From Gammaproteobacteria bacterium (GTDB lineage: Bacteria > Pseudomonadota > Gammaproteobacteria > Pseudomonadales > Pseudohongiellaceae), in the NCBI GenBank assembly GCA_030828385.1, contig JAURCS010000021.1, forward strand, positions 1 to 41,946: a DNA stretch of 41,946 nt. Reading direction: 5' to 3'. A program made the translations under genes and the position numbers. This document shows positions 17,121 to 37,372 of this stretch, piece by piece (the first letter of the stretch is position 1; each line of letters begins with the position of its first letter). The notes below the pieces were generated by a model that saw nothing but the letters and a program-made list of their open reading frames with translations, was not told the DNA's origin and searched no databases.

Positions 17121-17816
17121 ATGAGCAATAAGAAGATAGTAATTATTGAAGATGAGCCCGATATTCTCGAAGTGCTCAGCTATAACCTGAAACGGGAGGG
17201 CTTTGAGGTATTCACCGCAGTCAACGGTACCCTCGGGCTGTCTCTGGTTAACAAAGAAAATCCGGATCTTCTCCTGCTTGATCTGATGCTGCCGGGTATG
17301 GACGGTATAGAAATATGCAGTAATGTTAAAAGTAACCCGGCCAATCAAAATACCTTGATAATTATGGTGACAGCCAAAGGCGAAGAAAGTGATATCGTTC
17401 TTGGCCTGGGTGTGGGTGCAGATGATTACATTACCAAGCCTTTCAGTCCCAAAGAGTTGGTCGCCAGGGTAAAGGCGGTACTTCGTAGAGGCACTCTGGT
17501 AGAAAGCGCTCCGAGGCAGGATCAGGTTAAGGTCGGCAAGCTGGCCATCGATCCTGCCAAATATGAAGTTACCGTGGCAGGCAATGAAATCAGGCTGACT
17601 GCCACCGAGTTTCGTCTCCTGCACTATCTGGCTAGTAATCCAGGAAGGGTGTTCTCCCGGGAGCAGTTGTTAAGTCGCGCTATGGGTGATGATGTAGTTG
17701 TTGTCGATCGCAATATTGATGTTCATATACGTGGTATTCGCAAGAAAATGAATACCGAGCCGCCAATGATTGAGACCATCAGGGGGGTAGGCTATCGTCT
17801 CCGTGATTCTGTATGA
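17121..17816 (+). CDS. phoB: Phosphate regulon response regulator PhoB
   Basis: Receiver domain (1-120) with acidic pocket ED at 10-11, phosphoacceptor D54 in LLLLDLMLPGMDG, and the switch lysine in ITKPF. An OmpR-type winged helix follows (about 135-230), ending in DVHIRGIRKKMNTEPPMIET, and then a recognisable GVGYRL. The 231-residue length and this C-terminus fit PhoB well. Active PhoB binds Pho boxes at phosphate-starvation genes. It precedes phoR by 132 bases. A half-site-like CTGTCTT occurs at 17039-17045 upstream, but I could not find a full two-half Pho box, so autoregulation is only suspected. Confidence 0.95.
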   Translation: MSNKKIVIIEDEPDILEVLSYNLKREGFEVFTAVNGTLGLSLVNKENPDLLLLDLMLPGMDGIEICSNVKSNPANQNTLIIMVTAKGEESDIVLGLGVGADDYITKPFSPKELVARVKAVLRRGTLVESAPRQDQVKVGKLAIDPAKYEVTVAGNEIRLTATEFRLLHYLASNPGRVFSREQLLSRAMGDDVVVVDRNIDVHIRGIRKKMNTEPPMIETIRGVGYRLRDSV

Positions 17817-19994: not shown

Positions 19995-21446
19995 TTAAAA
20001 AGAAACATCCCACTGCAAACGCAAGCGATTATCAGATTCATCCTGAGCAAAAAAAGTGTCATCAAGGGTCAGGCGGGAAAAGTCCATGGTTACCTTGTTG
20101 TTATGGCCATTGAAGAACCAGTTTGCACCAATAGTAAATTCCCTGCGCTCGTTTTCCAGTACCCGATTAACTGCATTGGGTTCATCGACAAAAGAGTAAC
20201 GCGCCGCCAATTCAAGTGGCGCCGGGAAGTTCGGGAAAATATTGCTAAAGAAATATCCAGCCTGAACATAGCCACCAGTCAGTTCGTGTGAACTGCCATC
20301 AGCGTTGTCTTTTATGGTTTTACGGTGATATTCCTGCTGTGCCGAGAAGCCACGATACTTATAGGCAAATTCCTGCACTACCTGATCTATATCGAATTGG
20401 CCAGGGATCGCATTAGCGGGTCTGTCAAAGCCATCAAGATTGCCACAGCCTGAAGATGACCAGCGCGTACAGCTACCTGTTGTGGTAAACCCTGCAATAG
20501 CGAGGCTGCCTGTTGGCCGTTCAGTATATTCAACATCGGTTTGGCGCCAAGAAAGATCGCGACCGAGGAAGTTCCATTGTAAACGCCCCATATACATCAT
20601 GTCGTTATCAGTATTATTTACCGAACGACCTTCACCATTAAATACACCGGCGTAATAACGTAAATCTGCTGGCGTATCCTCGAAAAGATGCCCGCGCAGC
20701 TGCACACCAATCTGCCTGTCCATGGTGAAAACACGGTTAGCGATTGAGCGCTCTACAAATTGCTGTCTACCTGAGGAATCCACACGTTCGCGGTTAAGAT
20801 CGACCTTCCACTGCCCCAGGCGAATGCCGCCCCAATCCCATTTTGCGATATCTATGCGCCAGTCAATCACGCGCGCACTTGAGGAGGCACTACTATCATC
20901 CACATCCCGTGATGGCTGAAGATCTACCTCAAAATAATAGCTGAGCCAGGGCTGGAAGCCGTGACCACCAATTTTCATACGCAGGCGACGGGCTTCGAAG
21001 TTGGACTGTTCTTCGGCATTGAAACTGCCAATTTGCCTGGGATCTGATCGGTAGGGTGTGGTAAATCGCGTTTGCGCCCGCCATTGCAGTTCAGTACGCC
21101 AGTTGCCATCACGTGTGGCCAGGCGAAAACCGCTGCCTGTCTGGCTTGCTGCGACAGGAAACTCTTCGTCAATCTGCCTGGCGATTTCAGTAGCAACTCG
21201 CTGTTCTATTACCTCTCCTACTGCTTCTTCTGCTGCTTTTTCCAAAACGACTACTGGCAAGACGTCCCCGCTTGAAAGGGAATCCTTTTCAAGTAATGCA
21301 TCATATTGTTCAGTTGTTATTGCACCATTTTGAAGCAATATATCCAGTAGCTCCTGATCCGCAGCATAAGCAGCGGTTGAGGCTTCTAGCAATGCCACAA
21401 GCAGCAGTGCCTGCTTCAACTTGAAAGGTGTATTTTTTAGGTTCAT
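19995..21446 (-). CDS. OprP/OprO-type phosphate-selective porin
   Basis: Outer-membrane channel predicted to admit phosphate or polyphosphate. With the ATG at 21446 (GGAG ribosome site) the protein is 483 residues. It opens with a Sec signal peptide (cleavage after AYA near residue 28) and a short helical coiled-coil lead (ELLDILLQNGAITTEQYDAL), typical of porin O/P proteins. A long beta-rich barrel follows with alternating aromatic strands. It ends in aromatic F (LRLQWDVSF), as expected for BAM recognition. A longer frame from 21494 adds 16 residues before the signal peptide and is unlikely. Location between phoR and pstS strongly suggests PhoB control. Confidence 0.88.
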   Translation of the reverse strand: MNLKNTPFKLKQALLLVALLEASTAAYAADQELLDILLQNGAITTEQYDALLEKDSLSSGDVLPVVVLEKAAEEAVGEVIEQRVATEIARQIDEEFPVAASQTGSGFRLATRDGNWRTELQWRAQTRFTTPYRSDPRQIGSFNAEEQSNFEARRLRMKIGGHGFQPWLSYYFEVDLQPSRDVDDSSASSSARVIDWRIDIAKWDWGGIRLGQWKVDLNRERVDSSGRQQFVERSIANRVFTMDRQIGVQLRGHLFEDTPADLRYYAGVFNGEGRSVNNTDNDMMYMGRLQWNFLGRDLSWRQTDVEYTERPTGSLAIAGFTTTGSCTRWSSSGCGNLDGFDRPANAIPGQFDIDQVVQEFAYKYRGFSAQQEYHRKTIKDNADGSSHELTGGYVQAGYFFSNIFPNFPAPLELAARYSFVDEPNAVNRVLENERREFTIGANWFFNGHNNKVTMDFSRLTLDDTFFAQDESDNRLRLQWDVSF

Positions 21447-21751
21447 TTGGAAGACTCCATGCCGTGGTGATGACCTGTTATTTAGTGGGGGCATTCTTCC
21501 AAAGGATTATTAAGAAATTATAAAGAGCAGGTTAAGTTTTAAAGTTGCAGTTAAATTAACATTAAGAAGTCATAAATATGCTTTCAGGCAGATTTTTTAA
21601 AACATGCCATTGTTAAAGACTTTGGGATATGGAGGCTTGATTGTTCTGCTAAATATTGGAAAGAACTCCAAATCTTTATGAAACCTTAACAGTGTGATGT
21701 GACAATGCCGGCCATTGTGATCGCAAATACCTTTTTTGGAGAACCGTTAGG
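21447..21751. promoter_or_regulatory. Divergent porin-pstS control region with candidate Pho half-sites
   Basis: This 305-base stretch separates the divergent porin and pstS genes and must hold both promoters. The Pho consensus is two CTGTCAT-like halves 11 bases apart. Partial matches are AAGTCAT then ATGCTTT (21567-21584), a weaker TTAA-rich element from 21545 (22 bases earlier), and on the minus strand TTGTCAC and CTGTTAA between 21686 and 21705, spaced 13 rather than 11. None is a clean box. No open frame of interest is present. PhoB control is expected from gene content rather than proven by these sites. Confidence 0.35.
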
Positions 21752-22717
21752 ATGAGATACCCGACTGCCTTACTGAAAAAATCTGTAAATCTACCGCTTG
21801 TATTAACCATTACCTTGCTGCTTGGTGCTTGTTCTCAGCAGGATGAGTCTCAGGAAAGTGGAGCAACGGGTGCCGCGGCACTCAGTGGTGTTGTCAGTCT
21901 GGATGGTTCCAGCACTGTTTACCCGATCAGTGAAGCGGTCGCCGAAGAATTCCTGGCGGTAGCGCCCCGGGTAAGGGTTACTGTAGGCGTTTCAGGGACT
22001 GGTGGCGGTTTCAAGAAATTCCTGGCGCAGGAGACCGACATCAATGATGCTTCCCGCTCCATCAAGGACTCTGAAATTGAACAGGCAACTGCCAATGGCA
22101 TTGACTATCTGGAAATTCCGGTTGCCTATGATGGTCTTTCCGTAGTGATTAACAGCAACAATGATTGGGTTGATTATTTGACGATGGAAGAACTGCAATT
22201 GATCTGGCAGCCAGGTAGCACAGTCGACAGCTGGGATGATATTCGCCCGGAATGGCCCAGTGAGCCTTTAAGGCTTTACGGCCCCGGCACAGATTCCGGT
22301 ACCTTTGATTATTTTACTGAAACCATCAACGGTGAATCAGGGGCCTCCAGACCTGACTATACTGCCAGTGAAGATGATAACGTTCTGGTACAGGGTATCA
22401 GCGGTGATGAATTTGCCCTGGGGTTTTTTGGTTTTGCCTACTACGTGGAAAACATGGATAAGTTGCAAGTGGTCCCTATAGATGGCGGTAATGGACCCAT
22501 TATTCCTACAGAAACCACTATTAACGATGGTACCTACAGCCCCCTGTCACGACCTATATTTATTTACCTCAATACAGCCAGCATGGCGCGTCCTGAAGTG
22601 AACGAATTTGTTAATTTCTACATTGATAATGCAGGTGTTCTTGCCAGCGAAGTGGGATATATCGCCTTGCCAGATGATCTGTATCAAGAGGCTAAAGACA
22701 AAATCTCGGCTTTATAG
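21752..22717 (+). CDS. pstS: Phosphate-binding lipoprotein PstS
   Basis: Periplasmic phosphate receptor of the Pst ABC importer. The signal ends in lipobox LGAC with C27 as the lipidated residue, so it is membrane-anchored rather than free as in E. coli. Phosphate-binding segments are visible: DGSSTVYPISEAVAEEF, GVSGTGGGFKKF, NDASRSIKDSE and GTDSGTFDYF. Length 321 fits. It leads pstCAB-phoU with 84 bases to pstC. The ribosome site is near TTAGG/GGAG just before the ATG. PstS lipoproteins of this type are common in marine gammaproteobacteria and pseudomonad relatives. Confidence 0.95.
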   Translation: MRYPTALLKKSVNLPLVLTITLLLGACSQQDESQESGATGAAALSGVVSLDGSSTVYPISEAVAEEFLAVAPRVRVTVGVSGTGGGFKKFLAQETDINDASRSIKDSEIEQATANGIDYLEIPVAYDGLSVVINSNNDWVDYLTMEELQLIWQPGSTVDSWDDIRPEWPSEPLRLYGPGTDSGTFDYFTETINGESGASRPDYTASEDDNVLVQGISGDEFALGFFGFAYYVENMDKLQVVPIDGGNGPIIPTETTINDGTYSPLSRPIFIYLNTASMARPEVNEFVNFYIDNAGVLASEVGYIALPDDLYQEAKDKISAL

Positions 22718-22801
22718 TTTCTTGTAGATCTTTTGTTAATGTTTGATGATGTATTGGTCTACAATGCGAATCCCATTAAGTGAGCCGGTGATAGATTAAC
22801 A

Positions 22802-23761
22802 ATGGCACAAGAACAATATCCTGATGCTGCTTTAGCCAGTCAACCAGCAGAGCCTCGAGCCGCCAGATCAATTAAAAAATCCGGTGTGCTTTGGGGGGAA
22901 TTTGCCATCAAGAGCTGGCTGGCTTCCTGTTCTTTCATTTCCATTGTCACTACCGCTGCGATTGTTATTTTGCTGCTTAGTGAAACCCTGAATTTCTTTG
23001 AAAGCGTATCTCCGCGTGAGTTTTTCTTCGGTACAACCTGGACTCCCCTGTTTGAGCCTTCATCGTTCGGCGTATTGCCTCTGGTGTGGGGCACGCTGAT
23101 AGTGACTATTGGCGCGGCTCTGATCGCTATTCCAACGGGGTTGGCCAGTGCTATATACCTCAGTGAATATGCTTCAGACCGTATGCGAAGCATCATCAAG
23201 CCGGTACTTGAATTACTGGCGGGTATTCCAACGGTTGTCTATGGTTATTTTGCCCTGACCTTTGTCACGCCGGTTTTGCGTAACGTGTTTCCTGATATAC
23301 AGGTGTTCAATGCCCTGAGTGCTGCAATTGTTGTTGGCATTATGGTCTTGCCCATGGTGGCTACCATGAGTGATAACGCCTTGCGGGCTGTTCCTGTCAG
23401 TCTGCGCCAGGGAGCTTACGCATTGGGGGCTACCTCCTATGAAGTAACGACTCGGGTAGTGGTTCCGGCAGGACTCTCAGGGGTTATGGCATCCTTCCTG
23501 CTTGCCATTTCGCGCGCTATCGGTGAAACCATGGCGGTTACCCTGGCTGCGGGACAGACGCCTAATATGTCCCTGACCATGTTTGAAAGTATTCAGACCA
23601 TGACATCCTATATCGTGCAGGTCAGCCTGGGTGATACGCCCAGTGGTGGCGTTGCCTATCAAACCTTGTTTGCGGTAGCCACGCTGTTGTTTGCCATTAC
23701 CCTGGTGATCAACATTATTTCCCAGATGATTCTGAATCGCTTCAGGGAAGTTTATGAATGA
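22802..23761 (+). CDS. pstC: Phosphate ABC transporter permease PstC
   Basis: Inner-membrane permease subunit with about six transmembrane segments: the first near 45-65, then a periplasmic region with [20 protein letters not shown], then further helices. The coupling motif region includes [19 protein letters not shown] and [16 protein letters not shown], characteristic of PstC. Length 319 is normal. It lies 12 bases ahead of pstA, indicating one operon. It partners with PstA, PstB and PstS to import phosphate using ATP. Confidence 0.95.
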
Positions 23762-23773
23762 GGTTAAGCAATC

Positions 23774-24652
23774 ATGCCTTTAACAACTGAGCAAGAAAGT
23801 CGGCATCTGGAAAAGCGACATCGTAAGGCCAGAATTTTTGCGATTTTCTGTGCCGCTATTACCTGGTCAAGTGTATTGCTGTTGGCGGTATTGTTGTATC
23901 AGGTTTCTATTGAGGGCTTCCGCTGGCTGGATTGGCAGTTTATTAGCAGTTTTCCTTCCCGTTTTCCGGAGCGGGCGGGAATCAAATCGGCCCTGGTAGG
24001 AACTATCTGGCTGATCTCGCTGGTGGCATTGATTTCCATTCCCGTCGGTGTTTCCACGGCCCTCTATCTGGAAGAGTTTGCCGGCAAAGGCAAGATTTCC
24101 AAAATAATTGAAGTGAATATTGCCAATCTGGCCGGGGTGCCGTCTATTGTTTACGGGATTCTTGGGCTGGCAATATTTGTGCGTTTTTTCGCGCTGGAGC
24201 GAAGCCTGATTTCCGGTGCCTTGACCATGAGTCTGTTGATTCTACCGGTAATTATTATTGCCAGTCGGGAGGCGATTAAAACCGTTCCCCAGGGTATTCG
24301 TAATGCGGCTTATTCGTTGGGGGCGACTAAATGGCAGACCACCTGGGCTCATGTATTGCCCGCGTCGTTTCCGGGGATTATGACGGGAGTTATTCTTGCT
24401 CTTTCGCGCTCCATCGGGGAAACTGCGCCCCTGATCATGATTGGCGCCATGACCTTTGTCGCCTTCCTGCCTGAAGGTCCCATGGATTCATTTACCGCGA
24501 TGCCTATTCAGATTTATAACTGGGTTTCACGTCCCCAGGAAGAATTCCATGAGCTGGCGGCGGCAGGTATTATTGTGTTACTGGCAGTGCTATTGGTAAT
24601 GAATGCAACAGCCATATTTATCAGGAATAGAACAGAACGGAGAATGAAGTAA
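23774..24652 (+). CDS. pstA: Phosphate ABC transporter permease PstA
   Basis: Second permease of the Pst system, 292 residues with about six membrane segments. The family stretch [17 protein letters not shown] is represented by [20 protein letters not shown]. The coupling loop with [20 protein letters not shown] and [16 protein letters not shown] is typical of PstA. A GAGGTTAAG ribosome site precedes the ATG. The stop TAA shares its last base with the pstB ATG, so translation of the two is coupled. Confidence 0.95.
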
Positions 24653-25452
24653 TGAGCCAGTTTCCAGACTCGACACTGGCAGAACAGAATTTGCAAATGA
24701 GCAAGAAATCCGTTCTGGAACTACGTAACGTAAATATATTTTATTCAGATAATCAGGCCGTCAATGATGTGTCTTTTAATATCAGGCGCAATAAAATTAC
24801 GGCAATAATCGGGCCTTCAGGTTGTGGTAAAAGTACTTTGCTGCGCTCATTAAACCGGATGAATGATTTTGTAGATGGCGCCAGGGTCGAAGGAGAACTG
24901 ATTTTTGGTAATGAAAATCTGTACGGTAAAGAAGTGGATGCAGTAGAAGTCAGACGCCGTATCGGAATGGTGTTTCAGAAACCAAATCCTTTCCCCAAGT
25001 CTATCTACAACAATATTTCCTGGGGACCACTGATAAATGGTTTCAATGGTTCTACAGATGAGCTAGTTGAGCGCTCCCTCAAACAGGCCGCGTTGTGGGA
25101 AGAGGTCAAGGATCGTCTGCATGAGTCCGCCCTTAATCTGTCTGGTGGGCAGCAGCAGCGTTTATGTATAGCCAGGGCGCTGGCCATGGAGCCGGAAGTA
25201 TTGCTGATGGATGAGCCCTGTTCAGCACTGGACCCCATATCGACAGCGCGTATTGAAGATTTGCTGTTCGAATTAAAATCCAGCTATACCATCGTCATTG
25301 TGACCCACAATATGCAGCAGGCTGCCAGGATTTCAGACTACACTGCCTTTATGGAAATGGGCGATTTGATAGAATTCAATGTCACTAAAAAAATATTTAC
25401 CCGGCCGGCGATGAAACGCACTGAAGAATATGTCACCGGTCGTTTTGGTTAA
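24652..25452 (+). CDS. pstB: Phosphate ABC transporter ATPase PstB
   Basis: Cytoplasmic ATPase that drives PstCA. Walker A is GPSGCGKST, the signature motif is [15 protein letters not shown], Walker B is [13 protein letters not shown], and the switch histidine is in [14 protein letters not shown]. The 266 residues fit. A second ATG 12 codons in (MSKKSVLEL) would give a more compact N-terminus; I keep the coupled ATG at 24652. It is 79 bases ahead of phoU. PstB also passes signal state to PhoR through PhoU. Confidence 0.97.
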
Positions 25453-25531: not shown

Positions 25532-26188
25532 ATGTCATTACATTTACAGCGCGATCTTGAAAAGCTGAAGAAAGAAATCCTTAAACTGGGCACTATGGTT
25601 GAGTCGGCCATTAATAATGCCATCTTTGCGCTAAACAATCGTGAGATGTCCTACGTTGATGAGGTGCTCAGACTCGAAGACCATATTAATGAAATGGAAG
25701 TAAAGATAGAGGAAGACTGTCTCAAGATTCTTGCGTTGCATCAACCCGTCGCCGGTGACCTTAGATTTATCGTGGTCTCCCTGAAAGTAAATAATGACCT
25801 GGAACGGATGGGCGATTTCGCCAAAAATATTGCCAAACGCGCCAGGGAATTAATGCAGGAGGAGCCCATTTCGACCTTGCCTGAATTCGTTAATGAATTA
25901 CCCAACCTGGTTCGTACAATGGTTAGAAACTCTCTCGATGCACTAGTAAAACTTGATGTAGGTCTTGCCAGAGAGGTTATAGCCATGGATGATAAGGTAG
26001 ATGAAATTAATCGTGCCATGTACCAGGAGGTCACCAGGGTCGCTAAAGAAAACCCGTCGAAGACGGAAATAGCCATCAGTCTTCTTTCAACTTCGCGTTA
26101 CATGGAGCGTATCGGCGATTTGAGCACTAATATTGCTGAAGACGTTATCTTTATGGTTGAAGGCAGGGTAATCAGACACGACGATTAA
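25532..26188 (+). CDS. phoU: Phosphate signalling protein PhoU
   Basis: All-helical cytoplasmic regulator linking PstSCAB activity to PhoR. The 218-residue protein has the two tandem PhoU repeats: LGTMVESAINNAIFALNNRE with LRFIVVSLKVNNDLERMGDF in the first, and LDALVKLDVGLAREVIAMDD with ISLLSTSRYMERIGDLSTNI in the second. E/D-x-x-x-D metal-binding positions are retained in both (ERMGDF, ERIGDLS). It is slightly shorter than E. coli PhoU. Only 4 bases separate its stop from the next ATG, so the following imelysin gene may be in the pst transcript. Confidence 0.96.
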   Translation: MSLHLQRDLEKLKKEILKLGTMVESAINNAIFALNNREMSYVDEVLRLEDHINEMEVKIEEDCLKILALHQPVAGDLRFIVVSLKVNNDLERMGDFAKNIAKRARELMQEEPISTLPEFVNELPNLVRTMVRNSLDALVKLDVGLAREVIAMDDKVDEINRAMYQEVTRVAKENPSKTEIAISLLSTSRYMERIGDLSTNIAEDVIFMVEGRVIRHDD

Positions 26189-26192
26189 AGCC

Positions 26193-27473
26193 ATGCGATA
26201 TTTGATACCATTTTTTCTTGCTATAGGCCTGAGCGCCTGCAGTCCCCTAAACTCTGGTGACAGGAGTAGTGGGCAGGTTTTACCTGCTGCTATTCTCGAC
26301 ACCTATGTAGCTATTGCCAATGCTGCCTATGAAGATTCGCTTATTACTGCGCGTCAACTGGAACAGTCGGTAGATACTTTTCTGGCTTCGCCTTCAGCCC
26401 TGACTATGCAACAGGCACGCAATGCCTGGTTAGCTGCTCGAGTTCCGTATCAGCAAACTGAAGCCTTTCGTTTTGGTAACCGTGTTGTCGACGAATGGGA
26501 AGGACGAGTTAATTCGTGGCCCCTGGATGAAGGGCTGATTGATTATACGGCAGCTTCCTACGGTGAAGAATCCGACTTCAATTATTTCTATAGCGCCAAT
26601 GTGATTGCTAACGAGATTATTGACCTGGGTGGCATAACTGTTGATGCAGCCATGATTACTCCGCAATTACTGGCAGAAAACCTTCACCTGATTGACGGTG
26701 TAGAGGCGAATGTGGCGACCGGTTACCATGCCATTGAGTTTTTACTTTGGGGCCAGGATCTCAATGGCACCAGTCCCGGTGCGGGTAACCGTCAATGGAC
26801 TGATTACTCACTGCAAAACTGCAGTAATGGAAATTGTGATCGTCGTCGTGATTACCTGAAAGCAGCAACAGTATTGCTGGTAAATGATCTGGAAGAGATG
26901 GTTGGCAACTGGCAACCGGGCGGCGCTGCTTATATGGACTTAATGGGCAAGGGGGAGCAGGCTGGTTTGGCCACGATCCTCACCGGTATGGGTAGTCTGG
27001 CCTATGGTGAATTGGCAGGAGAGCGTATTCGGCTGGGATTGCTGCTAAATGATCCGGAAGAAGAGCATGACTGTTTTTCGGATAATACCCATCATTCACA
27101 CTACTATGATGCTCTTGGCATCAAAAATGTTTACCTTGGTGAATATCGGCGCGTCTCGGGTGAACTTGTTTCCGGGGCATCACTGGCAGATCTAATCTCG
27201 CAACAGGCGCCTGCAATCTCTGCCGAGATGATGGCGCGGCTGGAAGAAACCGAATCAGCTATGCAGAGAATGGTGGATGAAGGCGAGTCCGGCAATACTT
27301 TTGACGTACTGATCGGGCGTGATAATGCGCAGGGGGAAGAAATAATTACCCGCATAGTAGATGCGCTTATGGAAGAAACCCGAACCATTGAAAAAGTTAT
27401 CAATGAACTCGCCCTGGTGAATGTGAGTATTGAAGGGTCGGAAAGTCTTGATAATCCCTCGGCTGTTTTATAA
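26193..27473 (+). CDS. Imelysin (peptidase M75) lipoprotein, IrpA/IcmP-like
   Basis: The 426-residue protein begins with a lipoprotein signal ending LSAC (C16), so it is exported and lipid-anchored. The body is the helical imelysin fold. The GxHxxE motif is present as GYHAIE with H179 and E182, followed by FLLWGQDLNGT and the GNRQWTDYSLQNC region. Imelysins are known from iron- or haem-related loci, and the EfeO ferric-uptake protein shares the domain; peptidase activity is disputed for most. It starts 4 bases after phoU and overlaps the next gene by 26 bases, placing it at the head of a metal/haem cassette. Confidence 0.88.
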   Translation: MRYLIPFFLAIGLSACSPLNSGDRSSGQVLPAAILDTYVAIANAAYEDSLITARQLEQSVDTFLASPSALTMQQARNAWLAARVPYQQTEAFRFGNRVVDEWEGRVNSWPLDEGLIDYTAASYGEESDFNYFYSANVIANEIIDLGGITVDAAMITPQLLAENLHLIDGVEANVATGYHAIEFLLWGQDLNGTSPGAGNRQWTDYSLQNCSNGNCDRRRDYLKAATVLLVNDLEEMVGNWQPGGAAYMDLMGKGEQAGLATILTGMGSLAYGELAGERIRLGLLLNDPEEEHDCFSDNTHHSHYYDALGIKNVYLGEYRRVSGELVSGASLADLISQQAPAISAEMMARLEETESAMQRMVDEGESGNTFDVLIGRDNAQGEEIITRIVDALMEETRTIEKVINELALVNVSIEGSESLDNPSAVL

Positions 27474-28662
27474 AAATACTGGCAGCTTTCTTTTAGTGGC
27501 ATTGGCTGTAGTCTGCTTTCCCTTATTCGCGGCAGAGACATTCATGCCGTCACTTGATTTTATTACCGGCAAAGCCCTGTTTGAAAAAAACTGGGTACCT
27601 TCGTTTTCCTCCACCACCGCCAGCGATGGCCTCGGACCTTTTTATAATGCCCGTTCCTGTAACCAGTGCCATCCTGACGGGGGGCGTGGAAGCCGCGAGC
27701 AATCTCTTGTTTTACATGTTAATGATCCTGTTTATGGCCAGCAGCTGCAAAAATATGCCATGGCCGGCTTGCAGCGCGAAGCAGAAGTCAGCTTTGTGTT
27801 TGCTGATGTGAATAACGCTGGCAAGCCATCCGCCCCCACAATAGAAGTCAATAACCTTTCCCGCGGAGTCATGACTAATGCAGCGCTCTCTGCACGCATA
27901 GCGCCTTCGTTGCAGGGGCTGGGCTTGCTGGCGCGCATTCCTGATGATCTTATTCTCGCCATGGCTGACGCGGCGGACAGTAATGGCGATGGAGTTTCCG
28001 GTCGGGTGAACATGATTAGTGATAATGCCGGTGTTGGCAGCATTGGTCGTTTTGGCTGGAAAGCCGGGCAGGTGTCCTTACGTGATCAGTTGGCAAGAGC
28101 CTTGAGTCTTGATCTTGGTCTTGGCAATCCTGTTTTCCCCTCTGCCGCCGGCGATTGCACATCAGTGCAGGTAGACTGTTTAAACGCTCCCCATGGCAAC
28201 TCAAGTCATCATGATAATCTTGAAACCAATAATCAGGTACTGGATCTTTTGCTGAGCTATGTTTCGGGTTTGCCCGCACCATCAAAGACCAGCCAGGGAG
28301 CGTCGCAAGAGTCAGCCGGAGCAGCCCTTTTCCAGCAGAGCGGTTGTGCCGGCTGCCATGTACCCTCTCTGGAAAGCGGTGACTTCAGGCTTTCAGCTTA
28401 TACAGATCTGCTGTTACACGACATGGGGCCAGGACTGGCGGATAATCTTTCAGAAGGAAGTGCGCTTGGCAGTGAATGGCGAACGCCGCCATTATGGGGG
28501 CTGGGAAGCCTGCAAAGGCAACTTTTACATGATGGGCGCGCAACGACCATCGAGGAAGCCGTCTGGTGGCATGATGGCGAGGGCGCCGCTGCCAGGGATC
28601 ATTATGGAAATCTCTCACAACAGCAACGTAATGATTTAAACGCGTTTCTGAATGGTTTATAA
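27448..28662 (+). CDS. Di-heme oxidoreductase (DUF1111, DHOR family)
   Basis: Exported c-type di-heme protein. Heme motifs CNQCH (71-75) and CAGCH (300-304) are present, along with ITGKALFEKNWVP and DGLGPFYNARSCNQCH at the N-terminal heme, GLGLLARIPDD, and the C-terminal segment WRTPPLWGLG. These are features of the DUF1111 (DHOR) family related to MauG and cytochrome c peroxidases. The start is uncertain: TTG 27430 opens the frame, but TTG 27448 has a GGAAAG ribosome site and yields a clean signal peptide (FLLVALAVVCFPLFAAE). I use it, giving 404 residues. Its substrate is not known. Co-location with imelysins matches the known Pseudomonas icmP gene order from memory. Confidence 0.85.
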   Translation: MIIPRLFYKNTGSFLLVALAVVCFPLFAAETFMPSLDFITGKALFEKNWVPSFSSTTASDGLGPFYNARSCNQCHPDGGRGSREQSLVLHVNDPVYGQQLQKYAMAGLQREAEVSFVFADVNNAGKPSAPTIEVNNLSRGVMTNAALSARIAPSLQGLGLLARIPDDLILAMADAADSNGDGVSGRVNMISDNAGVGSIGRFGWKAGQVSLRDQLARALSLDLGLGNPVFPSAAGDCTSVQVDCLNAPHGNSSHHDNLETNNQVLDLLLSYVSGLPAPSKTSQGASQESAGAALFQQSGCAGCHVPSLESGDFRLSAYTDLLLHDMGPGLADNLSEGSALGSEWRTPPLWGLGSLQRQLLHDGRATTIEEAVWWHDGEGAAARDHYGNLSQQQRNDLNAFLNGL

Positions 28663-28663
28663 T
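28635..28663 (+). promoter_or_regulatory. Candidate sigma-70 promoter inside the imelysin cluster
   Basis: TTTAAA (28635-28640) and a perfect TATAAT (28658-28663) are separated by 17 bases, upstream of the second imelysin gene. The expected start near 28670 leaves a leader of about 24 bases. The -10 overlaps a Fur-box-like site. Confidence 0.5.
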
Positions 28664-28676
28664 GAGAACCGTTCTT
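28658..28676 (+). promoter_or_regulatory. Candidate Fur box
   Basis: TATAATGAGAACCGTTCTT matches the 19-base Fur consensus (GATAATGATAATCATTATC) at 13 of 19 positions by my count, including the AATGA and TT core features. It lies over the -10 and the likely start site of the promoter at 28635-28663, where bound Fur-Fe would block RNA polymerase. The site begins within the stop region of the upstream di-heme gene. Confidence 0.5.
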
Positions 28677-28693
28677 AATTAGAATTCCTTGTT

Positions 28694-29767
28694 ATGAAAA
28701 ACCTGCATTTTTGTACATGCCTGCTGGCAGCCTTGCTGGTCCCTTGCCTGGCAGTCGCCCAAACCACTGAAAACTGGACACAAGTAAATCTCTCCGTTAC
28801 TGATAACCATGTCATTCCAAGCTATATCAGTCTTGAAAATGCTGCTGCCGGGATGGCGACTGCGGCCCAATCCTTTTGCCGCTCTCCAGATGCGGCAGGG
28901 CTTGACGTCTTCAGGAATGGCTTTCATAACAGCATGGATGCCTGGCAACAAATACAGCATATCCAGTTTGGTCCTCTTACCTATTTCAACTGGAATTTCA
29001 GGATTCACTATTGGCCGGACGAGAAGGGCACCGGAGCCAGACAGCTGGATGATCTGATTGACTCCATGAACAGTGATTCCCTGGCTACAGATAACTTCGC
29101 CCGCGAAAGTGTCGGTGTTCAGGGTTTTCCGGCGCTGGAAAGACTTTTGTTTGATGATGAAAGCCTGCTTGCTTTCCGGGAAGATAACTATCGCTGCCAG
29201 GTAGCTCAGGCCATCGCACTGAATATCAGTGACATTGCCAGCGGTGTCAGTCAGCGCTGGCGTGATGAATTCAGAACCACTATCGAGAATGCCGATGAGC
29301 GGGGGTTTTTTGAAAGTGCCGAAGATGCCACGATTGATTTCCTGAAAGCACAGATAGAGTCTGTACGTAGAATTCAGCAACAGAAAGTGGAAGAGGTGAT
29401 CGGAGATTCCGCGGCTCGCGCCCGAATCCGACGCGCTGAGTCATGGCGCTCGAATCGCTCCCTGCGCAATCTCAGATTAAATGTTCTGGCACTGGAAAAT
29501 CTGTTCAGTGGCAACGAAGGACAGGCCGTTGCCCTTGGGGCTGTTTTGATGCCTGAAGACAGGACGCTCATCAGTGAGGCTTTCCTCACCCTGAAGATGA
29601 GGCTGGAAGCGGCGCCGGATTCAATTGAAGAAGCACTCGATGCTGATGACGGCTATGCCCGCTTACAACAGATAGCTGCCGGACTCGATGACCTGTTTGA
29701 GGCATTTGAAGCAGGGCTAAAAAACACTGATCTCTATCTGGGTTTCAATTCCCTGGATGGTGACTGA
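28694..29767 (+). CDS. Second imelysin-family exported protein
   Basis: The 357-residue protein has a Sec-type signal peptide ending near AVAQ (no lipobox cysteine at the cut). Helical body features match the imelysin family: AFCRSPDAAGL, AWQQIQHIQFGPL and a later VQGFPALERLLFDD. The GxHxxE motif of the first imelysin is here GFPALE (144-149), keeping the glutamate but not the histidine. That is expected for the second imelysin of such loci, and it suggests a non-equivalent metal or ligand site. It begins 31 bases after the di-heme gene and overlaps the frame of the DUF1513 gene if the longer start of that gene is used. Confidence 0.82.
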   Translation: MKNLHFCTCLLAALLVPCLAVAQTTENWTQVNLSVTDNHVIPSYISLENAAAGMATAAQSFCRSPDAAGLDVFRNGFHNSMDAWQQIQHIQFGPLTYFNWNFRIHYWPDEKGTGARQLDDLIDSMNSDSLATDNFARESVGVQGFPALERLLFDDESLLAFREDNYRCQVAQAIALNISDIASGVSQRWRDEFRTTIENADERGFFESAEDATIDFLKAQIESVRRIQQQKVEEVIGDSAARARIRRAESWRSNRSLRNLRLNVLALENLFSGNEGQAVALGAVLMPEDRTLISEAFLTLKMRLEAAPDSIEEALDADDGYARLQQIAAGLDDLFEAFEAGLKNTDLYLGFNSLDGD

Positions 29768-29783
29768 TCCAGCTGGCCTAGTG

Positions 29784-30929
29784 ATGAAATTAGATCGCAG
29801 ATATTTTCTTACCCTTGTCAGCGCCGCTATTGGTTCGCCGGTGCTGGCAGTTGGCGAAAATTCTTCAGACACTACTGCGCTTTTTCTGAGTGCGGCATCA
29901 GATAGTGATGATCAGCACTGGGTGATTGGTTTTGAGCTTGTCGATGGTAAAAGTGCCGAGAAATTCAGGCATCTGTTGCCGGCCAGGGCTCATCATATCG
30001 CTGTTCACGAAGCGCTCGGGGTGTTCGTTGTTATTGCCCGGCGACCCGGAAATTATTTATGGGTTGGCGATCTGCACAGTGGTGAGCCATTGGCAGAAAT
30101 TACGGTGCCTGTTGATCGTCATCTTTATGGCCATGGTGTGTTTTCAGAAGACGGCCGTCATTTTTATGCGCCTGAGAATGCCTGGCAGCTGATCAATGGT
30201 GACAGCGGCAGAGTCGTTGCCTGGCAGGTCAGTCGTGACAGTCAGGGTTTTTCCATGGTGCGCGCCGGGGATTTTCCCAGTTACGGTACCGGTCCCCATG
30301 AGTTATTGCTTAAACCAGATCAGAACACTCTGGTGGTGGCCAATGGCGGCATTCGCACCCATCCAGAACTCCCGCGGGAAAAACTCAATATCCCCTCCAT
30401 GGAGCCGTCACTGGTCTATATGGATGCAGTCACTGGCGAGTTGCAGGAGCAACATATGCTAGATGCTGAATACCATCAGGCAAGTATTCGGCATATTGAT
30501 CAGAATGCTTCCGGACAGGTAGTGATAGGTATGCAATACGAGGGTGAGCCTTTTGATAGTGCTCCTTTACTTGCCCTGCATGAACAGGGCAAGCCCCTGC
30601 AATTACTATGGGCACCAGAGCCACAACAGGGACAGATGAAACAATATATAGGTTCGGTACGTTATGATCGCAGTGGGCGATTTTTTGCCGCCAGCAGTCC
30701 GCGTGGCAACATGATCAGTTTCTGGGATGTTGCAACTGGGGAAATGAAAAAATCTCTGCGCTCCCGGGATGGTTGCGGTCTGTGTGCCATAGAACAGGGC
30801 TTTCTGTTTACTGCAGGCAGTGGGCGAATCACTCAATACGATTTGGTCAGGGATGAAATAGAAGCATTGAATACCGGGTCTGATGGCAAAGTGTTCTGGG
30901 ATAATCACCTGAGTATGATTGCGCGATGA
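29784..30929 (+). CDS. DUF1513 beta-propeller-like exported protein
   Basis: A 381-residue protein whose N-terminus MKLDRRYFLTLVSAAIGSPV is a twin-arginine signal, so it is probably exported folded by Tat. The body shows repeated strand patterns (FVVIARRPGNYLWVGDLHSG, TGPHELLLKPDQNTLVVANG, GRFFAASSPRGNMISFWDVA) like a seven-blade propeller, matching the DUF1513 family. The frame can open at ATG 29757, but I prefer ATG 29784 because it places the RR motif correctly; neither start has a strong ribosome site. The family accompanies imelysin and di-heme genes in many proteobacteria, and its function is unknown. The stop overlaps the next ATG in an ATGA. Confidence 0.82.
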   Translation: MKLDRRYFLTLVSAAIGSPVLAVGENSSDTTALFLSAASDSDDQHWVIGFELVDGKSAEKFRHLLPARAHHIAVHEALGVFVVIARRPGNYLWVGDLHSGEPLAEITVPVDRHLYGHGVFSEDGRHFYAPENAWQLINGDSGRVVAWQVSRDSQGFSMVRAGDFPSYGTGPHELLLKPDQNTLVVANGGIRTHPELPREKLNIPSMEPSLVYMDAVTGELQEQHMLDAEYHQASIRHIDQNASGQVVIGMQYEGEPFDSAPLLALHEQGKPLQLLWAPEPQQGQMKQYIGSVRYDRSGRFFAASSPRGNMISFWDVATGEMKKSLRSRDGCGLCAIEQGFLFTAGSGRITQYDLVRDEIEALNTGSDGKVFWDNHLSMIAR

Positions 30930-32089
30930 AAAATCCAATAACGTTAACTCTGTTTTTTTCGTTTTGCCTTTCTCTGCTGGCGTTGCCGGTTGTTGCCGAT
31001 GAAAAAGCAGATGATTACCAGACCAGGCTGGAAGACCTCGGACGCGCCCTGTTTTTTGATGTCAGCCTGTCCCGTGATCGCACTCAGGGCTGTGGCACCT
31101 GCCATGATCCTTCGCAGGCATTCATAGACTGGCGGGAAAACGGGGTTCGCCGGGCACTATCCATGGGCAATGACATGCATTCTCTGGGCGATCGTAATGC
31201 GCCGACACTATCCTATGCGGCCATGATTCCGGATTTTCATCGCAATAGCGAAGGCGATTATGTCGGCGGCCTGTTCTGGGATGGCAGGGAAGCCGATCTT
31301 GAAGGTCAGGCCGGTGGACCCTTTCTGAATCCTTTGGAAATGCAAATGACCGATAAGGCCGCTGTCGTAGCCCGTTTGCAGGAGCACACGCTGTTTCCCC
31401 GGGCGTTCAAAAGCCTGTTTGGGGAGGATGTGTTTGAAGATACTGACATGGCCTTTCGACGCATGACTGAAGCCATTGCGGCGTTTGAGCGGACCGATTT
31501 CTTTTCTCCTTTTGATTCAAAATATGATCGTTACCTGAAGGGGGAATATGAACCCACGGTTCAGGAAGAACTGGGGATGACGCTGTTTTTCTCCCAGCAG
31601 TTCAGTAACTGTAACCAGTGTCACCAGTTAAAAACTTTTGCTGAAAGTGAGGGCGAAACCTTCTCCAGTTACAAGTATTTCAACATTGGTACCCCGGTAA
31701 ACCGCGAAGCCAGACAAGTGAACGGACTGGGCATGGCGCATATTGATCGTGGCCTGCTGGAAAATCCCCATGTGGATGATCCGGCCCAGGCGGGAAAGTT
31801 CAAAACACCGACCCTTCGTAATGTGGCACTGACAGCGCCTTATATGCATAACGGGGTATTTCAGGATCTGAAAACAGTGGTGCAGTTTTACAACAAGTAC
31901 AATGTTCGCGGTAAAGCGGCGGATATCAACCCCACAACAGGGGAACCCTGGGGTGAAGCGGAAGTTTCAGAGAATATCGATCTGGAAAAACTGCAGTCTA
32001 CACCGGCGCTGGATGAGCGTCGTATTGATGCCCTGGTAGCCTTCATGAAAATGCTCACCGATAAACGCTACGAACACCTGGTGCAATAG
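30926..32089 (+). CDS. Di-heme cytochrome c peroxidase / MauG-family protein
   Basis: Exported enzyme with a signal peptide ending near VVAD. It carries heme motifs CGTCH (56-60) and CNQCH (229-233), and the CcpA/MauG stretches LGRALFFDVSLSRDR and FKTPTLRNVALTAPYMHNGV, then FQDLKTVVQFYN. The family reduces peroxide or performs oxidative maturation of partner proteins using two c hemes. Length 387 is normal. It is the last gene of the cluster, joined to DUF1513 by an ATGA overlap. Canonical peroxidase versus MauG-like chemistry cannot be told from these motifs alone. A haem-maturation pathway elsewhere in the genome is required. Confidence 0.9.
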   Translation: MKNPITLTLFFSFCLSLLALPVVADEKADDYQTRLEDLGRALFFDVSLSRDRTQGCGTCHDPSQAFIDWRENGVRRALSMGNDMHSLGDRNAPTLSYAAMIPDFHRNSEGDYVGGLFWDGREADLEGQAGGPFLNPLEMQMTDKAAVVARLQEHTLFPRAFKSLFGEDVFEDTDMAFRRMTEAIAAFERTDFFSPFDSKYDRYLKGEYEPTVQEELGMTLFFSQQFSNCNQCHQLKTFAESEGETFSSYKYFNIGTPVNREARQVNGLGMAHIDRGLLENPHVDDPAQAGKFKTPTLRNVALTAPYMHNGVFQDLKTVVQFYNKYNVRGKAADINPTTGEPWGEAEVSENIDLEKLQSTPALDERRIDALVAFMKMLTDKRYEHLVQ

Positions 32090-32132: not shown

Positions 32133-33041
32133 TTAGCTGGGGAGTTTATACAACGCAATTTTCAGACGTTTATCCGCATCAGTTTCCTCAAATTCCACAG
32201 CGGGTGGAATCCATTCAACAAACTCACTGCCCGGTAAATTTTCTGCCATGCAATCATGTAAAAAATCCTCTCCCAGGAAGGGGCTGTTCAGGGCAGCAAT
32301 AATGGTAGCTCCCGGATTACAGAGTTCAGGCATTCGTTTCACAACGCTTTTATAATTACGCTCTGCGTTAAAGCTGCCACGCTGATTGGTGGGCGGGTCG
32401 ATAATTACCAGGTCATAAGGGCCAAACTGTTTGATCCTTGCCCAGGACTTGAACAGGTTGTGAGGGATGCTCCTGATTGGCATGGGGCCCTGGCCATTTA
32501 GCATGTGGTTTTGCAGTCCCCACTCAATGCTTGGCTTGCTCATATCGACATTGGTGACACTCTTGCCGCCTCCTGTCAGCGCTGCCACTGACAGGGCGCA
32601 GGTATAGGCAAAAAGGTTCAGCACATTGCAGCCATCACTGTTTGCCTTGAGCCATTCGCGCAGTGGGCCGGTATCAAGAAAAAGGCCGGCATTTTGGCGT
32701 CGCCCCGGGTGTACTTCAAAGCGAAGTCCTTGCGCTTTCACAATAATCCTGTCGAGCTCTACACCGGAGAGCGTGTCTGCGGGGGACTGTTTCAGGTAGC
32801 GATGCTGCAGAACAATGGATTTAATCTGTTTTTTGCTATCGGCGGCGAGAATCAGCTGTTTCAATGCTTCTGCATTATCCACTGCCTGCCAGGCAGAAAT
32901 AAGCACAACAGGTTTGAACCAGTCGATACAAAGGTGTTCCAGCCCAGGATAGCAATGACCGCGGCCATGGAAAATCCGGCGCGCTTCATGCTGCTCTTCA
33001 GAAAAAAATGTCTGAAGTTTTTCATTGAGAGAAGTAAGCAT
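32133..33041 (-). CDS. Class I SAM-dependent methyltransferase, RlmI/RlmK-like
   Basis: The 302-residue protein carries the segment GRRQNAGLFLDTGPLREWL, then SAM motif I NVLNLFAYTCALSVAAL, then TNVDMSKPSIEWGLQNHMLN, and the catalytic-site DLVIIDPPTNQRG. These are hallmarks of the Methyltrans_SAM family that includes the 23S rRNA m5C methyltransferase RlmI and the C-terminal half of RlmKL. The PUA domain of RlmI is absent. The DPP motif is typical of N- or C5-base methylation. It runs convergent to the peroxidase gene and is followed downstream by nothing until that gene's end. The exact target is unknown. Confidence 0.82.
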   Translation of the reverse strand: MLTSLNEKLQTFFSEEQHEARRIFHGRGHCYPGLEHLCIDWFKPVVLISAWQAVDNAEALKQLILAADSKKQIKSIVLQHRYLKQSPADTLSGVELDRIIVKAQGLRFEVHPGRRQNAGLFLDTGPLREWLKANSDGCNVLNLFAYTCALSVAALTGGGKSVTNVDMSKPSIEWGLQNHMLNGQGPMPIRSIPHNLFKSWARIKQFGPYDLVIIDPPTNQRGSFNAERNYKSVVKRMPELCNPGATIIAALNSPFLGEDFLHDCMAENLPGSEFVEWIPPAVEFEETDADKRLKIALYKLPS

Positions 33042-34014: not shown

Positions 34015-34419
34015 ATGTTACTAAACAAAGCAAAATCGCTGGCTTTAATGGCCACAGCACTGGTTTTATTATTGGGCAATTCGCTGGCCTGGGCGCATCA
34101 TTCGTTCGCCGCTGCCTACAATATGGAAAATCCGATCGAAATAACCGGCAAAATTGTCAATGTTCGCCTGACCAACCCTCATTCCTACTTTTTCCTTGAT
34201 GTTGAAGGGGAAAATGGCGAAATGCAGCGCTGGTCATTCGAGGCCGGCACACCCAGCGGAATGATTCGTGGCGGCTATTCCCCCGAAGTCATCAAGGAAG
34301 GGGATATGGTGACTATAGGCGGTTTTCGCGCACGCGATGAATCCACCAATGGCATGCTGACAAAACTGGTAACCTCTGATGGTACCGAATACGGCATGTT
34401 TGGACCCAGGGAAAGGTAA
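34015..34419 (+). CDS. DUF6152 exported protein
   Basis: The 134-residue protein has a signal peptide with cleavage likely after AWA (AWAHHSFAAAY). Then comes one small beta-rich domain with ITGKIVNVRLTNPHSYFFLD, the invariant NPHS, RWSFEAGTPSGM and KEGDMVTIGGFRARD. This is the DUF6152 pattern, an OB-like exported domain, and HH is the likely mature N-terminus. Histidines at the N-terminus could bind metal, which is inference. The next gene follows after 32 bases on the same strand. A fused relative of both lies at 36227-37372. Function unknown. Confidence 0.75.
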   Translation: MLLNKAKSLALMATALVLLLGNSLAWAHHSFAAAYNMENPIEITGKIVNVRLTNPHSYFFLDVEGENGEMQRWSFEAGTPSGMIRGGYSPEVIKEGDMVTIGGFRARDESTNGMLTKLVTSDGTEYGMFGPRER

Positions 34420-34451: not shown

Positions 34452-35219
34452 ATGAAAATACTCAATCGTAATTTATTAGTCGGACTGGTCGCTCTGGCCT
34501 ATGTTTTTTCGGCAGCTGCCCAGGATAGCGGGGAAATTCCGCGTATGGCTGATGGCAAGCCCGATCTTAGTGGTGTCTGGTGGACCGGGGGCGATCTTGG
34601 CAGTGCTGGCTATGGCAGTACCACTGACAGAAGTGCCGGTTTGCAATACAACCTTTACACCGATCTTTACACCCCTGAAGCGGCGCAGCGTATGGCTACC
34701 CTGAGTGACAAGGATGATCCGACACTGCAGTGCAAACCCACCGCCTTTGGCACTCTCAGTGTACGCTTGTTTGATGTCGGTGCAGTAGGGCAGATCGTTG
34801 CGACGCCCGATATGATGATTTTTCTGCAGGAGACTTTCCATGGTTATCAGCTGATTCCCACCGACGGTCGCAAACATCGCTTTTTGCCGCCTTCCTACCG
34901 TGGTGATGCCGTGGGACATTGGGAAGGGGACACTTTCGTGGTCGAAACGGTTAATTTTACCGATGATACCTGGATGTTTGCCGAAGGCGGTGTGTCGTTT
35001 CATTCCGACCAGCTGCGTATTGTTGAACGCTATAACATGAGTGATGCCAACACCCTGCGTATTGACGCCACCATTTATGATCCAGGTGTACTTAGAGAGC
35101 CCTGGGTAGTACCAACCAAGACTCTGGTACTGGCACCCTTTGATCAGTTGTTACCGCTGATATGTTCCGGGGTAGAAACCCAGGAAAGAATGGATGGGGC
35201 TTCTGCAGCCGGGCAATAG
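34452..35219 (+). CDS. Exported protein of unknown function, DUF6152 partner
   Basis: The 255-residue protein has a signal peptide ending near SAAAQDS. The mature part opens with PRMADGKPDLSGVWWTGG, a marker of a large uncharacterised family common in Acidobacteria and marine proteobacteria. It continues with CKPTAFGT, FHGYQLIPTDGRKHRFLPPS, GHWEGDTFVVETVNF and DQLRIVERYNM. The GxWEGDTLVVET-type segment is the most constant and recurs in the fused gene at 36227-37372. No enzymatic motif is evident. Gene pairing and the fused relative indicate that it works with DUF6152. Confidence 0.65.
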   Translation: MKILNRNLLVGLVALAYVFSAAAQDSGEIPRMADGKPDLSGVWWTGGDLGSAGYGSTTDRSAGLQYNLYTDLYTPEAAQRMATLSDKDDPTLQCKPTAFGTLSVRLFDVGAVGQIVATPDMMIFLQETFHGYQLIPTDGRKHRFLPPSYRGDAVGHWEGDTFVVETVNFTDDTWMFAEGGVSFHSDQLRIVERYNMSDANTLRIDATIYDPGVLREPWVVPTKTLVLAPFDQLLPLICSGVETQERMDGASAAGQ

Positions 35220-36226: not shown

Positions 36227-37372
36227 TTAATTCTGCTGGAACTCAGGGGTCATTTCCTTGCATTCCTGTGCCTGGAAAGGCACATCTGAAAGATACATTA
36301 CATCATAGCTTTCATAGGGCGCGGCCAGATAGACTGGATCAGTGACTGAATACTCGCGCTTGAGTGCCATTTTTTCTGTGTCCAGAGAGAAGCGCTCCAC
36401 GATATGCATCTGCTCACTGCTGCGTGTAGGTGGCGTCAGAACCCCTTCCGCGAAACCGATAGTATCAACCACCAGCGTGTCGCCTTCCCAGTTGCCAATG
36501 GAGTGACCGGCATAGCTGGGCTCAATGTTGGCTGGATGCTCGCTCATACCTATATGGATGCGGCGATTCAGGTTGTACAGGCCATAGGTGATATCAATAA
36601 CCTTTTCACCCTGCGCTGTAGTAGTTTGCCGGAACTGGTTTATTGGCCAGTCTGCTGTCCAGTCACGAATAAAGCTGGTGGGTTTGCAGTCGAACCAGGG
36701 ATTGTCGATGGGTGAGCGGCGGTCAAAGGCATCTGCCGCAGCCTGACCTCTTTCGGTATAGACCACCTGTGGTCTTGGCGGTTGCGTGGCGCGCACATCT
36801 TCAATGCTGATGCTACCTGCAGCAAAGGCGGGAGACATGCTCTTGGGAATCATGGAGCCGCGGCCACCACTGGGAGGTACCGTCAGTACCAACTGTTCCA
36901 CCGCCCAGTCACCGCTTATATTAAGCTGGCCATCAGCAAGGCGCAAAGGGCGATCAGAGGTATCCACAGGGGCAGTGGAGAGCAACTGATCATTGCGGTT
37001 CATGGTGATTTCATCATCGATGGTGAAGGTCTCGATATAGCAGGCTTCAGGATCATCACGGTGAGGATTGCCTTCGATTTTTACATGGGAGCCGACCTTG
37101 AACATATCGGTGGACCAGCCAGAGCGTCGGATCAGCGTACCGGCGCGCATTTCACAGCGCATATGCAGAACATTGCCGTCTGCTTCCACAACATCCAGTT
37201 CCATATAGGAATGCGGGTTGACCAGGTTCATCTTGGTGAGAGTGCCTTCCCATTCTTTTTTAATTTCCAGCTGGAACAGACCGAAACCATGGTGAGCCAG
37301 CACCGGGCTGGCCAGTCCTGCGATTAGTGCGCTGGCAGCAGCCGTACGAAGAATTCTTTGAGTGTTAAGCAT
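36227..37372 (-). CDS. DUF6152 domain fused to a GxWEGDT-type exported domain
   Basis: The 381-residue exported protein has a signal peptide (ASALIAGLASPVLA) then HHGF. N-terminal domain: EGTLTKMNLVNPHSYMELDV and RCEMRAGTLIRRSGW, matching the DUF6152 protein at 34015-34419. C-terminal domain: RLADGQLNISGDWAVE, WFDCKPTSFIRDW, IGNWEGDTLVVDTIGF and MHIVERFSL, matching the protein at 34452-35219. It is thus a single-chain version of that gene pair. It lies on the opposite strand with its own promoter region of 244 bases shared with recQ, and a terminator follows. Molecular function is unknown; an exported ligand-binding role is a guess. Confidence 0.75.
   Translation of the reverse strand: MLNTQRILRTAAASALIAGLASPVLAHHGFGLFQLEIKKEWEGTLTKMNLVNPHSYMELDVVEADGNVLHMRCEMRAGTLIRRSGWSTDMFKVGSHVKIEGNPHRDDPEACYIETFTIDDEITMNRNDQLLSTAPVDTSDRPLRLADGQLNISGDWAVEQLVLTVPPSGGRGSMIPKSMSPAFAAGSISIEDVRATQPPRPQVVYTERGQAAADAFDRRSPIDNPWFDCKPTSFIRDWTADWPINQFRQTTTAQGEKVIDITYGLYNLNRRIHIGMSEHPANIEPSYAGHSIGNWEGDTLVVDTIGFAEGVLTPPTRSSEQMHIVERFSLDTEKMALKREYSVTDPVYLAAPYESYDVMYLSDVPFQAQECKEMTPEFQQN

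Follow-up and report, generated by a model that had tools for sequence, protein, structure and literature searches.

Contig JAURCS010000021.1 of assembly GCA_030828385.1 (41,946 nt), from a Gammaproteobacteria bacterium of the family Pseudohongiellaceae (Pseudomonadales), is referred to here, over its whole length, as the window. We observed that a cassette of five genes, encoding an imelysin of the IcmP type (imelysin-1), a DUF1111/DHOR di-heme protein, a second imelysin (imelysin-2), a DUF1513 protein and a MauG-like di-heme enzyme, directly follows the phosphate-uptake genes pstSCAB-phoU. The explanation that we favor and regard as reasonably probable is that a Fur-type iron cassette was captured once by a PhoB-controlled operon and that its control is now split, with imelysin-1 and DHOR going with phosphate and imelysin-2, DUF1513 and the MauG-like enzyme going with iron. 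As the cassette stays behind the phosphate-uptake operon across three genera, our findings suggest that part of an iron system is induced when phosphate runs short. The operon and the cassette comprise the following features:

21752-25452, + strand: pstS, pstC, pstA and pstB; PstS, PstC and PstB score above the NCBIfam cut-offs, PstA is named by position and sequence only
25532-26188, + strand: phoU; PF01895, and TIGR02135 with 212.7 bits against a cut-off of 130.25
26189-26192, + strand: junction of 4 bases between phoU (TAA ending at 26188) and imelysin-1 (ATG at 26193)
26193-27473, + strand: imelysin-1, IcmP type; PF09375 with 282.9 bits, GYHAIE as GxHxxE motif, lipobox-like LSAC by eye
27430-28662, + strand: DUF1111/DHOR di-heme protein; PF06537 with 190.6 bits, TTG start, CxxCH at residues 77 and 306
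28694-29767, + strand: imelysin-2; PF09375 with 147 bits, GFPALE as GxxxxE motif, as in the IPPA/PA4372 family
29784-30929, + strand: DUF1513 protein; PF07433 with 323.6 bits, ATG at 29784, twin-arginine-like signal by eye
30926-32089, + strand: MauG-like di-heme enzyme; PF03150, two CxxCH, Trp118 and Tyr322 at the places of MauG Trp93 and Tyr294

Conservation of the linkage within the family

We searched 138 genomes of the family with imelysin-1, the genera being labelled g1, g2, g7 and g8. Matches were found in 64 genomes; 41 of them were weak, all in g8, and 23 were strong (60-100% identity) and distributed over g1 (7 genomes), g2 (11) and g7 (5). Since phoU lies directly upstream of imelysin-1 in 21 of these 23 carriers, the linkage is kept beyond chance, and the junction that a preceding sequence-only reading of the window had proposed to look for in related genomes is indeed present in three genera. 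In g1 every one of the 6 genomes with phoU (window included) has a gap of 3-4 bases between both genes, in g7 all 4 have 81-92 bases, and in g2 the spacing ranges from an overlap of 8 bases up to 232 bases, with some start codons being uncertain. DHOR was detected in 20 and DUF1513 in 19 of the 138 genomes, every one of them among the 23 carriers. Wider synteny does not explain the linkage, as MeT and QueH, the downstream neighbors in the window, are absent in all nine g2 and g7 loci that extend at least 2 kb beyond the MauG-like gene. Seven g8 genomes possess a close PhoU (54-73% identity) without a strong imelysin-1, and no cassette gene follows phoU in at least 5 kb in six of them (L124-L129), the seventh (L131) showing only 0.35 kb.

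Two further observations concern the phosphate genes themselves. PhoU proteins of the family fall into two classes, one sharing 54% identity or more with PhoU of the window, the other 40% or less. Moreover, pstS and pstC are split over several open frames in L131 (genome G089) and pstC is split in L117 (G003), which may reflect decay or assembly error.

Occurrence of the cassette outside the family

We further analyzed 80 named loci, of which the ten closest (L003-L012) are Pho-linked: in eight of them imelysin-1 lies behind phoU, in one behind phoR and in one behind a porin gene. These ten probably correspond to genomes already counted among the 23 carriers and were not added to them; all their records are metagenome-assembled, so that no cultured member is known from this analysis. 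No PhoU match was found in the other 70 named loci, several of which have short flanks, and the few PstB, PhoB or PhoR labels among them, none above 109 bits, seem to belong to unrelated ABC or two-component proteins. A search of the order gave imelysin-1 matches at 1e-30 in 132 of 341 genomes, 4 of them from the family. We examined 126 loci outside the family (26 + 100; about five further matching places were left out, and L172, L186, L194, L245 and L248 are short stretches) and in none of them was PhoU, Pst or the OprP-like porin found upstream of the cassette. The statement of the sequence-only reading that such a cassette is not known as an extension of pst-phoU is therefore in line with both sets.

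The imelysin tree comprises the 23 family sequences, 26 loci of the order and 27 taken from the 70 named loci outside the family; it was built by a quick method with SH-aLRT support and no bootstrap. All 23 family imelysins form one clade (SH-aLRT 100), and because the phoU-linked imelysins group in this way, the cassette was likely captured once behind pst-phoU. Genes for MauG-like enzymes with the tyrosine ligand also occur beside imelysin-1 outside the family, namely in Neptunomonas, in Oleiphilus and in 3 of the 26 order loci (L013, L014, L135, L136, L138), and a di-heme match was found upstream in 6 of the 100 further order loci. For this reason the link between MauG-like enzyme and imelysin is probably older than the Pho link.

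Variants of the locus

Among the carriers, G016 (L006) and G051 (L009, L132) have no PhoU match, and both possess a Pit-type transporter. The gene order in L006 is phoB-phoR-imelysin-1, and between phoR and imelysin-1 (L006:7931-7993) we found a remnant of the 3' end of phoU, comprising its last 64 bases with 80% identity (E 6e-12) and, at the protein level, 21 residues with 67% identity. From this remnant we conclude that pst-phoU was deleted in G016 and the cassette retained. In L009 the porin gene lies upstream of imelysin-1, which is preceded by a Fur box scoring 16/19.

Another variant was observed in G002 (L122), G004 (L121) and G006 (L123), where imelysin-1 is located behind phoU without being followed by the remaining four genes of the cassette. 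The second imelysin, DHOR and DUF1513 were not found genome-wide in these three genomes (completeness 100% for G004 and G006, 88% for G002), the MauG-like gene not having been searched genome-wide there. In the imelysin tree G003 is the partner of G002 and the cassette-bearing G010 that of G006 (support 83), with G004 next to G006 and G010; given these placements, the remaining cassette was likely lost on at least two branches.

Layout and proteins of the cassette

The sequence-only reading had placed the imelysin ATG 4 bases past the phoU stop and had described the following genes as overlapping or separated by at most about 30 bases. Both descriptions hold: behind the junction listed above, DHOR overlaps imelysin-1 by 44 bases, imelysin-2 starts 31 bases after DHOR, DUF1513 follows imelysin-2 after 16 bases and the MauG-like gene overlaps DUF1513 by 4 bases. 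The start of DHOR seems to be the TTG within imelysin-1, and the gene after the cassette (32133-33041) lies on the opposite strand. The Pfam scores of the cassette proteins are far above the cut-offs, and the order GxHxxE imelysin, DUF1111, GxxxxE imelysin, DUF1513 on one strand, by which we define an IcmP-type cassette, is present in the window. No further imelysin was found in the window's genome.

Compared with the solved structure 7xrx (named insulin-cleaving metalloproteinase outer membrane protein), imelysin-1 scored 388.7 bits, and its GYHxxE motif is kept in all 23 aligned sequences. Both CxxCH motifs of DHOR are present in 20 of 20 aligned proteins, which have a length of 372-416 residues in the family (one of 473) and of 436-478 residues in five proteins from outside, some of them cut by locus ends. 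The terminal enzyme aligned with MauG of P. denitrificans at 424 bits, compared to 60.8-158.5 bits for the other chains listed. Trp118 occupies in the window the place of MauG Trp93, which we take to be the inter-heme tryptophan, and M, L, V or R is found there in 9 of 19 aligned sequences; the place that we presume to be MauG Trp199 is not conserved. At the place of MauG Tyr294 the window has Tyr322, with tyrosine in 18 of 19 aligned sequences and the 19th cut at this point. A tyrosine heme ligand is said to separate MauG from CCP (PMC7567364). The enzyme scored below the cut-off of NCBIfam TIGR03791 (TTQ_mauG; 93.6 against 443.85 bits), and PF02975 (methylamine dehydrogenase light chain) gave no match in the window's genome nor in any control genome. 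By its sequence the terminal enzyme is thus MauG-like rather than CcpA-like, and we use no stronger name because the TTQ_mauG cut-off was not reached, the Trp93 place is variable and the Trp199 place is not kept. The earlier suggestion of two di-heme enzymes including a MauG/CcpA peroxidase stands with respect to the terminal enzyme being a di-heme protein; by its tyrosine ligand this enzyme resembles MauG and not CcpA.

Candidate regulatory sites

The features considered for the control of the locus, together with the neighboring Pho genes, are:

17121-17816: phoB, named from sequence and position only
17949-19739: phoR, named from sequence and position only
19995-21494, - strand: divergent OprP-like porin gene, named from sequence and position; its sole NCBIfam match is below the cut-off
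21507-21525, - strand: Pho-box-like direct repeat before the OprP-like porin gene, 12/13 specified bases, 3 mismatches in another scan
21674-21691, + strand: Pho-box-like direct repeat CTTTAT-N5-CTTAACA before pstS, 13/13 specified bases
28635-28663, + strand: candidate internal promoter TTTAAA-17-TATAAT, consensus match only, 10/12
28658-28676, + strand: Fur-like box over the -10 of the candidate internal promoter, 13/19; kept at the same place in relatives

The direct repeat (at least 11/13) was detected before pstS in 18 of 19 loci, compared to 0.003 in shuffled sequences, although the motif was read off the same loci and the comparison is therefore partly circular. The repeat presumably differs in its letters from the E. 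coli Pho box. Similar repeats occur before the porin gene in 8 of 9 loci (shuffled 2.8%) and before phoB in 1 of 8; none was found before imelysin-1 (0/21) or before imelysin-2 (0/16). On the + strand we found no terminator-like site in phoU or at the phoU/imelysin-1 junction, and terminator-like sites were overall fewer than in shuffles (5 versus 10.9). Taking together the repeat before pstS, its absence before imelysin-1 and the lack of a + strand terminator-like site at the junction, phosphate control of imelysin-1 and DHOR via read-through from pst-phoU is plausible.

For Fur boxes we scanned with a 19-base consensus, using a threshold of 14/19 unless stated otherwise. Such a box is found around the imelysin-1 start in 43 of 99 loci of the order, compared to 1.2% of shuffles, and in 13 of 26 loci of the other order set. 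In g7 the phoU/imelysin-1 junction carries a Fur box in five of five genomes (scores 15-16); before imelysin-1 of the g1 and g2 relatives none was observed (0/17), and near 26193 in the window there is no box even at 13/19. Because g7 and g1 are grouped together in the imelysin tree, the pattern would fit either a loss of the junction box in g1 and g2 or its regain in g7. The sequence-only reading would have been refuted by a strong terminator or an independent promoter at the junction with no joint transcript, and the strong Fur box goes half way in this direction, for g7 only.

Before imelysin-2 the situation is different in that the Fur-like box of the window overlaps the best promoter match of the scanned region, which ranked first among 23 sites in 10.9 kb (shuffles average 13.3 sites). 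Among the g1 and g2 relatives, 7 of 12 reach a score of 14 within 75 bases of imelysin-2; L007 scores 13, and L113 scores 16 slightly further upstream. Since this promoter match with its Fur-like box precedes imelysin-2, the earlier proposal that phosphate starvation induces the cassette is plausible for imelysin-1 and DHOR, via the assumed read-through, and is not supported for the whole cassette as one phosphate-induced unit.

Proposed explanation and alternatives

According to the split-control explanation favored here, the cassette of imelysin, DHOR, imelysin and DUF1513 together with the MauG-like gene would have been captured behind pstSCAB-phoU in the ancestor of the three genera. The Fur box often found before imelysin-1 in the order is missing in the window's genus, where imelysin-1 and DHOR may be transcribed by read-through as the last part of the pst-phoU unit. 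Imelysin-2, DUF1513 and the MauG-like gene could, judging from the sites described above, also be transcribed from the internal promoter under the Fur-like box. Phosphate shortage would then raise imelysin-1 and its DHOR partner, and iron shortage the rest of the cassette. By analogy with the IcmP and Efe families, it is most likely that the proteins bind iron and oxidize or reduce it beyond the inner membrane, handing it on, and the benefit would be an iron supply that is kept in step when phosphate and iron are both scarce.

Several observations weigh against this explanation. The cassette persists in G016 and G051 although neither has a PhoU match, which shows that it does not need Pst. In g7 the junction looks Fur-driven. 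Outside the family, a Fur box precedes imelysin-1 in just 1 of 69 named loci, which are mostly alphaproteobacterial, the rest being no better than shuffles, so that cassettes of this type are not universally controlled by Fur. The Fur-like box of the window scores only 13/19, which is unremarkable alone as 15 + strand sites of at least 13/19 exist in the window, and in the g2 relatives L118, L119 and L120 the box before imelysin-2 scores only 11-12/19. A weak promoter-like site lies within phoU (25965-25993, 9/12) and a + strand terminator-like site within DHOR (28027-28047). Furthermore, an FTR1/EfeU permease was searched for in the window's genome with 0 matches (4 of 14 control genomes match), and neither of the alkaline phosphatases PhoX and PhoD was found there, leaving an obvious pay-off unmet.

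Some of these points would also be expected if the cassette had merely landed behind phoU and stayed undisrupted, being driven by its own promoters without any real effect of phosphate. The strong Fur box at the g7 junction in all five genomes, the internal promoter match under the Fur-like box of the window and the persistence of the cassette in the two genomes without a PhoU match fit this possibility, which we nevertheless consider doubtful: in g1 the gap is only 3-4 bases with neither a Fur nor a Pho box before imelysin-1, downstream synteny is otherwise lost, and imelysin-1 alone is kept behind phoU in G002, G004 and G006, on at least two branches of the tree. If imelysin-1 were a working part of the phosphate-starvation response, i.e. 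a surface lipoprotein made with Pst/PhoU and handling phosphate-bound iron, with the other half of the cassette under Fur, it would be expected to stay behind phoU even where the rest of the cassette has been lost; we regard this version as unlikely.

The three genomes with imelysin-1 alone could also be taken to mean that imelysin-1 has a direct phosphate role as a Pst/PhoU accessory, for example as a surface lipoprotein handling ferric phosphate whose iron binding serves phosphate capture. With the GxHxxE site unchanged and the cassette retained in two genomes without a PhoU match, we hold this to be quite improbable. PhoX and PhoD are iron-dependent alkaline phosphatases, and an iron supply for them under phosphate shortage would account for Pho control of the cassette. 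However, PhoD occurs in 4 of 23 carriers and in 79 of the remaining 115 genomes of the family (Fisher p 8e-6 without correction for relatedness). PhoX was found in 3 of 23 carriers, in one case split into two pieces, counting only matches at E < 1e-40 and leaving out many weaker partial matches in the family, a few of them in carriers. Across the 138 genomes searched, this supply is contradicted for the 17 of 23 carriers that have neither enzyme, the window's genome included (other phosphatase families were not searched), and we give it hardly any credence.

Further neighbors of the locus

Near phoB the window contains a sigma-factor-like gene (16353-16928, - strand), and a 65% identical gene is located 3' of imelysin-1 in G006 (L123:11515-12129); from these different positions we conclude that neighbors have been shuffled around the Pho block. 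Downstream of the cassette, 34015-34419 encodes a DUF6152 protein, 36227-37372 opens much like this protein (by eye), and the product of 34452-35219 looks secreted and is without a Pfam match.

Significance

In marine and freshwater settings, growth can be limited by iron and phosphorus together. For one cyanobacterium, Synechocystis, iron uptake has been shown to be under PhoB control (PMC11126600). The locus described here may represent an iron-phosphate link that forms part of a single operon and is conserved in three genera. Its natural variants, i.e. the junction Fur box, the mid-cassette Fur-like box, imelysin-1 alone and the deleted pst-phoU, make the coupling of two nutrients directly testable, and the phoU-linked cassette may offer a handle on imelysin function.

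Comparison with known systems

No published description of the phoU-cassette fusion, the proposed split control or the imelysin-1-only forms was found in our literature search; imelysin and phoU occurred together in no paper found, and the papers found that pair imelysin with MauG concern Leptospira. IcmP-type iron cassettes and PhoB control of iron uptake have been published already; by this search the fusion, its proposed split control and the imelysin-1-only forms appear to be new. For the comparison with the IcmP locus we took PA4373 to be a DUF1513 protein. The PA4370-PA4372 locus contains, as here, two imelysins (PA4370, and PA4372 with GxxxxE) and the EfeB/DUF1111-like PA4371; its Fur regulation has been published, whereas in the window a Fur-like box precedes imelysin-2 instead, and the portion of the source available mentions neither a pst-phoU link nor a MauG-like gene, both of which are present in the window (PMC3143127). 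EfeUOB/M systems share with the window the theme of an M75 (imelysin) domain combined with a periplasmic heme peroxidase (PMC3143127), but the imelysins of the window are two stand-alone proteins, and EfeB is reported to be a DyP-type peroxidase (PMC3577903) and not a CxxCH di-heme protein. MauG of P. denitrificans and the enzyme of the window are alike over near full length, with two CxxCH and with Tyr at the MauG place; the Trp that the window has at the other MauG place varies among the aligned sequences. In Synechocystis the phosphate regulator PhoB acts on iron uptake, which is a precedent for the link proposed here, and the Pho box repeats have a TTAA core, as does the repeat before pstS; there PhoB binds separate promoters (those of the Fe-selective porin slr1908 and of sodB), whereas here it is the position behind phoU that would provide the connection (PMC11126600).

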